From a virus: a stretch of DNA of 21,941 nucleotides. A program made the translations under genes and the position numbers. Shown one piece after another: positions 14,981-15,916 of the stretch. The DNA lies in IMG/VR virus record IMGVR_UViG_3300010885_018307, positions 1 to 21,941 of that record; one strand, 5' to 3'. Position 1 is the stretch's first letter; every line of letters starts with the position of its first letter. The notes below the pieces were generated by a model that saw only the letters and a program-made list of their open reading frames with translations, was not told the DNA's origin and did not search any database.

Positions 14981-15202
14981 TTACTTACCATCGTAGTCTT
15001 TGACATCTCCTCCATAATGAACTGATTTAGCCTTACGGCCTTTTAGATAATTCCCATGCCCGTCAGTATGGCCTTTACCTTTTGATTGATGTGGACGAAG
15101 CCCTTGACTTACACAACTAGAATAATCACTTCTGCCTAATCGTTTTGGACTTCGGCAAATTTTAGGGTTAGTTTTTTCAATGATAAATTCTGACGCTCTC
15201 AT
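14981..15202 (-). CDS. Small basic protein with a capsid-targeting-like leader (73 aa)
   Basis: The N-terminus reads MRASEFIIE. T4 internal head proteins begin MKTYQEFIAE, and the prohead protease gp21 cuts after (L/I)-x-E; here Ile-Ile-Glu fits that rule. The rest is strongly basic (many Lys, Arg and His) with the block GKGHTDGHGNYLKGRKAK and two cysteines, as expected of a DNA-associated protein packed in the head. I infer an internal head protein that is trimmed during prohead maturation and delivered with the DNA. It overlaps the related-leader gene upstream by four bases. No other domain is recognised. Confidence 0.55.
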   Translation of the reverse strand: MRASEFIIEKTNPKICRSPKRLGRSDYSSCVSQGLRPHQSKGKGHTDGHGNYLKGRKAKSVHYGGDVKDYDGK

Positions 15203-15903
15203 TTATTTTTCCCTGCTTTCATGTTAGCCATCCAATGTGCCAATTCGCCTTTACGGCCGCCTTGTTTGGCAACCTTGCGTAGTGTACCTACACTTGCTTT
15301 AGTAGGCACACTATATCTTTTGCTGTCGCCCTTATCTTCAGGATGACGCCCATCTGCAAAGTTTTCATCCATGATCCAGGTATCCGGCACCTCGTCATAC
15401 TGATCAACCCACATGTCGTGTAACTTCTGCCCGCTTATACCATGTGACTTAGCAATGCGTGTCATTAGTGTATCAATAATATCGTATACTTGATCTTCGC
15501 TGGCATGTTGTAGAGTTTCTTTCTTTGCCAACAATGCCGCTTTTAATTCTGGTACTGCTTGATTATCTTTAGCATGATCCATGTTCTCAATAATCATGTC
15601 TATCATGTGTTCAACACTTTCACAGTTCCAACGACGTAAGGCCAATGCTTTAGGAGTAGGCTTGCCATTGGGTTTTTTCATTGGGCCTTTGTTACCACTC
15701 ATTCTAGCGCAGAAGCTTTTTCTACGTTTAGCGGCTTTTGAGCCAGCTTTTAATTTACTAGGTTTAGTAGTTACCGCTGTTTGTAATTTGCTACCCGGAT
15801 GTTCTCTACGATAGGCATTAACAGCTTTTTGACTCAGGCCGTTAGTCTTGTCGTGGTGATTGACTTTGTTCCAATCTTCTGTAATAAATTCATGTGCTCT
15901 CAT
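15199..15903 (-). CDS. Modular basic protein with a capsid-targeting-like leader (234 aa)
   Basis: MRAHEFITE opens the protein, a second copy of the leader seen in the next gene, with Ile-Thr-Glu as a possible gp21-type cleavage site. Three modules follow. Residues about 22-92 are very basic (NGLSQKAVNAYRREHPG, KAAKRRKSFCARMSG, LALRRWNC) and resemble a small phage domain of unknown function. Residues about 120-180 are helical and acidic (EDQVYDIIDTLMTRIAKSHG, WVDQYDEVPDTW). Residues about 200-230 are basic again (TLRKVAKQGGRKGELAHW). This fits an injected DNA-binding internal protein, though an unrelated structural role is possible. No ribosome-binding site is seen, and a late box lies right before the ATG. 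Confidence 0.6.
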   Translation of the reverse strand: MRAHEFITEDWNKVNHHDKTNGLSQKAVNAYRREHPGSKLQTAVTTKPSKLKAGSKAAKRRKSFCARMSGNKGPMKKPNGKPTPKALALRRWNCESVEHMIDMIIENMDHAKDNQAVPELKAALLAKKETLQHASEDQVYDIIDTLMTRIAKSHGISGQKLHDMWVDQYDEVPDTWIMDENFADGRHPEDKGDSKRYSVPTKASVGTLRKVAKQGGRKGELAHWMANMKAGKNK

Positions 15904-15908
15904 GAATT

Positions 15909-15916
15909 TATTTATT
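15909..15916 (-). promoter_or_regulatory. Late promoter box abutting the start of the internal-protein gene
   Basis: AATAAATA on the minus strand overlaps the stop region of the holin-like gene. By T4 geometry transcription would begin at about 15903, which is the first base of the ATG. The mRNA would then be leaderless, matching the absence of a ribosome-binding site. Confidence 0.4.

Follow-up and report, generated by a model that had tools for sequence, protein, structure and literature searches.

Two adjacent genes with a common leader

The window, by which we mean the whole 21,941-bp stretch of DNA analysed, carries two adjacent genes on its minus strand whose products begin with an EFIxE leader. 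ORF 1 (15199-15903, 234 aa) starts MRAHEFITE/DWNK, the slash marking a predicted cleavage site, and ORF 2 (14981-15202, 73 aa) starts MRASEFIIE/KTNP. The leaders lie at 15877-15903 and 15176-15202, with predicted cuts at E9/D10 and E9/K10, respectively, and the two reading frames overlap by ATGA. The pattern ATGMGNGCNNNNGARTTYATHNNNGAR matched the window at exactly two places and was absent from all 100 dinucleotide shuffles, which bears out the sequence-only reading that two neighbouring proteins share this start. A looser leader pattern matched no further ORF in the window.

ORF 1 is predicted to be an internal head polyprotein, in which the leader is followed by three modules and cuts are expected after E9, E106 and E180. 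Module 1 (15586-15876, minus strand) consists of DUF6321 (residues 10-94) and a linker to residue 106, and is basic (pI 10.5). The second predicted cut, E106/N107 (MIIE/NMDH), leads to module 2 (15364-15585, minus strand; residues 107-180), which is of the NMDH or KLHDxWV type and acidic (pI 4.7). The third, E180/N181 (WIMDE/NFADG), leads to module 3 (15202-15363, minus strand; residues 181-234), which runs NFADG...LAHWMANMKAG and is basic (pI 10.4). ORF 2 has one small basic Cys-containing module behind its leader. Both proteins had been called basic from the sequence. This is true of the whole chains (pI 9.7 for ORF 1 and 9.9 for ORF 2) but not of module 2.

DUF6321 (PF19846; residues 16-92, 61.1 bits against a curated cut-off of 28.5) was the sole domain that Pfam and PHROG searches recognised in ORF 1. 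ORF 2 matched no Pfam or PHROG family and had no relatives among deposited phages; a homologue with the leader was found at locus L167 (MRAFEFITEKTDPKVCRSPKRLGRSD). No known enzymatic effector domain was found in either protein by the family searches. A PDB sequence search returned nothing useful, and the structure model of the DUF6321 module (pLDDT 71, pTM 0.43) had too little confidence to support a fold search.

The window is a 21.9-kb fragment of a genome. It gave no match to an S77 protease, and no capsid gene was named among the window proteins scanned. Genes at 16822-15912 encode a SleB-type cell wall hydrolase (PF07486) and then, directly upstream of ORF 1, a small membrane-like protein, and the two are possibly a lysis pair. 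At 1697-634 there are an IscU-like and two IscA-like iron-sulphur assembly genes, one of which matches an unknown PHROG.

A T4-late-promoter-like motif (AATAAATA, 15909-15916, minus strand) is located 5 nt 5' of the ORF 1 start. In these phages, motifs of this type stand ahead of genes in a strand-specific manner. The idea of a late promoter tied specifically to the leader was rejected, because NATAAATA was no commoner upstream of leader genes (26/191) than of other ORFs (233/1504). NATAAATA often ends 4-7 nt 5' of the start codon (15909-15916 in the window, and many other loci), a spacing that would give nearly leaderless late transcripts.

The leader is carried by unrelated proteins

When IMG/VR was scanned with the leader pattern, at least 120 stretches were matched, compared with 10 for an order-permuted control of the same residues. 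The matches were gene starts of otherwise unrelated proteins. The loci retrieved gave 187 different leader proteins, which formed 31 single-linkage cargo clusters. The proposal that the leader could be used for mining was thus well founded, and the suggested search of relatives gave many cargo proteins, with ORF 1 and ORF 2 as the only ones in the window. In 184 of the 187 proteins, an in-frame stop was present shortly upstream of the leader start. Among the leaders, every one of the four Ala and three Ile codons was in use, as were both Glu and both Phe codons. Since synonymous codons vary freely across 31 unrelated cargo clusters, selection acts on the leader peptide and not on the DNA. Those relatives of ORF 1 that were picked without using the leader begin with it or with MKIxELLxE.

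The cargo included GH19 lysozymes and a ParB-like domain, together with weak kinase-like and GNAT-like matches. One leader family, with members of about 125 aa that frequently occur as tandem pairs, was very common (L090-L209, e.g. L157:366-752), and it was unmatched in deposited phages, Pfam and PHROGs.

The leader had been likened to the capsid-targeting sequence (CTS) of T4, ending at a gp21-type [IL]xE site, and our comparison supports this. Its F, I and E match CTS positions 7, 8 and 10, residues shown to be important by mutation (PMC9026906), and all three are kept in both window leaders. The aromatic residue at CTS position 4 is replaced by Ala in the window leaders and is present in the cyanophage form MKxFxxFLxE. 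As a positive control, an equivalent pattern was run on T4 and found only ipII, ipIII and the unassigned gene 61.1. The product of gene 61.1 (NC_000866 18966-19130, L472) starts MKTFKEFIKE/DMVAGDSGG and has a lysine-rich tail. It is possible that this is an unrecognised T4 internal protein.

Cleavage-type sites at module junctions

Sites of the same type were found inside the proteins. The DUF6321 module, which starts DWNK, was directly preceded by Glu in 54 of 60 distinct contexts, and in five more the Glu stood two residues earlier. P3 was I, L or V in most of the 60, whether a leader or an unrelated domain lay upstream, and [ILVF]xE, the form that includes the leader site of ORF 1, likewise preceded the module in most of them. 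We then counted [ILVM]xE directly before internal copies of nine modules, whose seeds were picked after the junctions had been seen: SINC 14/14, KASR 7/7, DUF6321 21/31, NFADG 17/23, AYGPG 5/8, RKWF 3/6, KLHDL 2/3, KGQKD 1/1 and KDACY 1/5, compared with 0.6-2.8% at other offsets. The rule was weak for KDACY and RKWF. At the junctions Glu at P1 was more constant than the hydrophobic P3; for the NFADG module, Glu preceded all 23 internal copies. In the five best-sampled modules, identity was 6-9% upstream of the junction and 54-82% downstream of it.

The presence of the same [ILV]xE between unrelated modules as after the leader leads to a polyprotein reading. The leader then looks like one case of a broader pattern, in which the modular cargo of aquatic T4-like phages is made as polyproteins for the prohead protease. 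The earlier reading missed that a cleavage-type site also parts internal modules, and this pattern points to polyproteins more than to effectors that are individually tagged with a leader.

A DNA word at many joints

Many joints in relatives contain a 16-18-bp DNA word, AGCAAGGTGTGGCGGAAG, which encodes Q-G-V-A-E and hardly varies, even at synonymous positions. The word was not found in the window. An IMG/VR scan gave up to four copies per stretch among the matches listed, and a synonymous spelling gave 30 single matches. In the longest open frame, all 174 word copies among the matches listed were read as QGVAE; they had 149 distinct upstream flanks, and conservation was gone beyond about 20 bp. 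In 84,980 prokaryote genomes the word occurred only as 24 scattered single copies. Dispersed copies were seen in L033 (e.g. L033:8258), L032, L169, L063 and L502-L617, with up to seven per 20-kb stretch.

In L147, QGVAE/NMDHSKDGRAVEELK stands at the place of MIIE/NMDHAKDNQAVPELK in the window, and QGVAE/NMDHSKDGRAVEELKAAL is the reading at the position of E106/N107. The QGVAE box showed a weak positive association with strict leaders (10/78 versus 38/783, Fisher p 0.008). A literature text search with the QGVAE peptide and the DNA words gave no phage report among the matches listed. We tentatively propose, at somewhat less than an even chance, that in aquatic T4-like phages the word is an exchangeable joint, which encodes a protease site and by its constant DNA sequence offers recombination a foothold. 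Modules of head cargo would in this way be reassorted into polyproteins that bear a CTS, and the maturing head would cut these into separate injected domains. A part for the word in recombination is our inference.

Prohead protease and gp23 in relatives

The presence of a gp21-type protease had been named as a check on the leader idea, and such proteases were found in relatives. An S77 protease was present in 11/11 leader records of at least 140 kb in the pattern sample, and every leader or box record of at least 140 kb with gp23 also had a gp21-type S77. When gp23 and S77 were jointly checked in 21 large records, 15 had both genes and 6 had neither. Three further records had both, giving a total of 18 leader, DUF6321 or box records. 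We relied on this agreement, which partly reflects the adjacency of the two genes, instead of a background S77 rate, because unselected large contigs were too few; the S77-centred sample consisted mostly of short contigs. Peptidase_S78 was found in 0/30 records tested.

In G005 (73 kb), gp23 lies at most 1.5 kb from the contig end and S77 was not found, as expected if the contig stops between the two genes. S77 was missing from most of the smaller leader contigs. This is in keeping with most complete cases, in which tens of kilobases lie between the leader genes and the head cluster. The leader was in turn missing from several S77-bearing phages, so only some S77 phages have it.

The His and Ser of the relatives' S77 proteases align with the catalytic His and Ser of T4 gp21. 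In S77-bearing relatives, gp23 reads LIE/SATAGATSAGN or LQE/SASAGATSAGN. The SASAGATSAGN stretch is closely matched past the site of several cargo proteins (L163, L153), e.g. MRANEFIKE/TASAGATTSGN.

Leader and DUF6321 proteins in cyanophage virions

The virion proteome of cyanophage S-CREM2 contains ORF137 (4 peptides, 4.1% coverage), and the protease was likewise detected in purified virions (PMC10665884, Table 3). ORF137 is a DUF6321 protein and a homologue of ORF 1, without the EFIxE leader. Leader-like starts were seen on the virion enzymes of this phage: the SAM hydrolase starts MKDFDSFLEE, the kinase MKRFDAFLTE and the cytidylyltransferase MKNFSSFLTE. Hypothetical ORF13 starts MKDLHSFLTE and ORF136 starts MQTFSMFFSE. 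The Cas9-like nuclease (OR473000 7704-10313), reported in virions, has a CTS-like LRFASFMAE near residue 20.

The motif was carried by 3/4 named virion enzymes and by seven of 217 proteins in total (hypergeometric p 8e-5, post hoc, as the motif follows the T4 mutational data but was set after seeing the sequences). Virion and non-virion proteins of S-CREM2 could not be told apart by the looser [ILV]xE within residues 6-18 (p 0.10); only the aromatic-x-x-aromatic form of the motif did. The T4-GC190 cytidylyltransferase family is a virion protein in S-SM1 (PMC3037559). We found the leader on this family in S-SSM5, and on annotated cytidyltransferases of P-TIM68 and DSL-LC02. Modules related to those studied here are annotated as structural protein in S-P4.

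Discussion

It is quite probable that ORF 1 and ORF 2 belong to the internal proteins of the head in a T4-like aquatic phage, with a capsid-targeting leader, S77 cuts at the leader and the module joints, and products kept with the DNA. As the equivalent of T4 MKTYQEFIAE, the nine-residue leader would serve as a capsid-targeting propeptide that docks each protein onto the prohead core late in infection. There the gp21-type S77 prohead protease would cleave after the Glu of [ILV]-x-E and free the cargo of its leader. The same protease would cleave between modules, giving three small mature domains from ORF 1 and one from ORF 2. The mostly basic products may remain with the packaged DNA and would probably accompany it into the next host. 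The sequence-only interpretation, taken as a whole, is partly supported by these results.

The role of the cargo can be read in two ways. The leader may be a cleavable tag for binding the prohead core, and the mature modules may merely condense DNA or balance charge as structural components and not effectors. We put this at an even chance, with condensation of DNA and an effector function about equally likely for the cargo. The DUF6321, NFADG and ORF 2 modules have a pI of about 10, DUF6321 genes are flanked by scaffold and capsid genes in T7-like phages and adjoin terminase genes in cyanophage isolates, and no defence-related matches were found for the modules of ORF 1 and ORF 2, all of which suits a structural role. 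The acidic module 2 does not, and the enzyme-like cargo on other leaders (GH19 lysozyme, ParB, kinase-like, GNAT) is better suited to delivered effectors.

The [ILV]xE at module borders could instead be a structural cap or a linker habit that is left uncut, as the greater constancy of P1 Glu over P3 and a helix from residue 2, near the junction, in the low-confidence DUF6321 model might indicate. We consider this improbable, since the site is common to several unrelated modules and the mature N-terminus of gp23 is matched after it. In addition, the DUF6321 protein of seven smaller phages (T7-like and other podovirus-type) starts at the module, and the leader or site was present in 0/7. To our knowledge, T7-like phages lack S77. 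Among cargo proteins that do not belong to the large polyprotein cluster, [ILV]xE was also rarer than its mirror Ex[ILV]; harm from stray sites would lead one to expect this difference, which is largely one family's effect. Finally, the location at gene starts and the DNA-level repeats at junctions of related phages could point to a DNA or translation signal, or to one ancestral domain, in place of a peptide tag, but this is very improbable given the synonymous variation of the Ala, Glu, Phe and Ile codons, the 31 unrelated cargo clusters and the recurrence of [ILV]xE within proteins.

T4 internal proteins inhibit GmrSD restriction enzymes, and many of the T-even ones were discovered via the leader (PMC12373910). 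A leader valid in freshwater and marine phages would let the head-loaded proteins of numerous uncultured phages be listed directly. It could further account for the kinase, SAM hydrolase, cytidylyltransferase and perhaps the Cas9-like nuclease in virions of cyanophages. Provided that the joints are cut, the phage head would be a compartment for polyprotein processing, and each predicted fragment would have an exact N-terminus.

Comparison with known systems

The Pfam model of DUF6321 (PF19846), which ORF 1 matches, is silent on the leader, the junctions and the function. Head propeptides of SPN3US and phiKZ are similarly removed by a gp21-like protease after x-x-E and were proposed to serve head targeting; they differ in being mostly long, following an AxE rule and having no short leader common across cargo (PMC5694885).

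Polyvalent proteins (Iyer et al. 2017, PMC5512222) are shuffled multi-domain proteins predicted to be codelivered with DNA, and their ParB, kinase, GNAT and lysozyme domains overlap with the cargo found here. The trait of several shuffled domains per polypeptide is seen in ORF 1, whose three modules each occur elsewhere in other company. The paper ascribes processing to zincin or to built-in assemblin-like peptidases, and in its available part neither prohead-protease sites at module joints nor a CTS leader is described.

The closest likeness is to the CTS of T4 IPI-III (MKTYQEFIAE), which is also a short N-terminal EFIxE with a gp21-type site on unrelated cargo. The window leader has nine residues instead of ten, with Ala-x in place of Tyr-x ahead of EFI. 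The L/I-x-E rule is held in common with gp23 and gp24, the substrates of T4 gp21 (Peptidase_S77) (PMC9026906), and the T4 gp24 start MAKINELLRE/STT resembles the MKINELLNE leader variants of relatives. At P3, T4 gp21 prefers L or I, whereas V is common here and T or Q occurs at some cyanophage junctions. The cargo of the aquatic phages is much wider than IPI-III, and multi-module with more internal sites. In T4, internal proteins shed a propeptide and core proteins are cut to pieces, whereas the site seems to serve here as a link between cargo modules.
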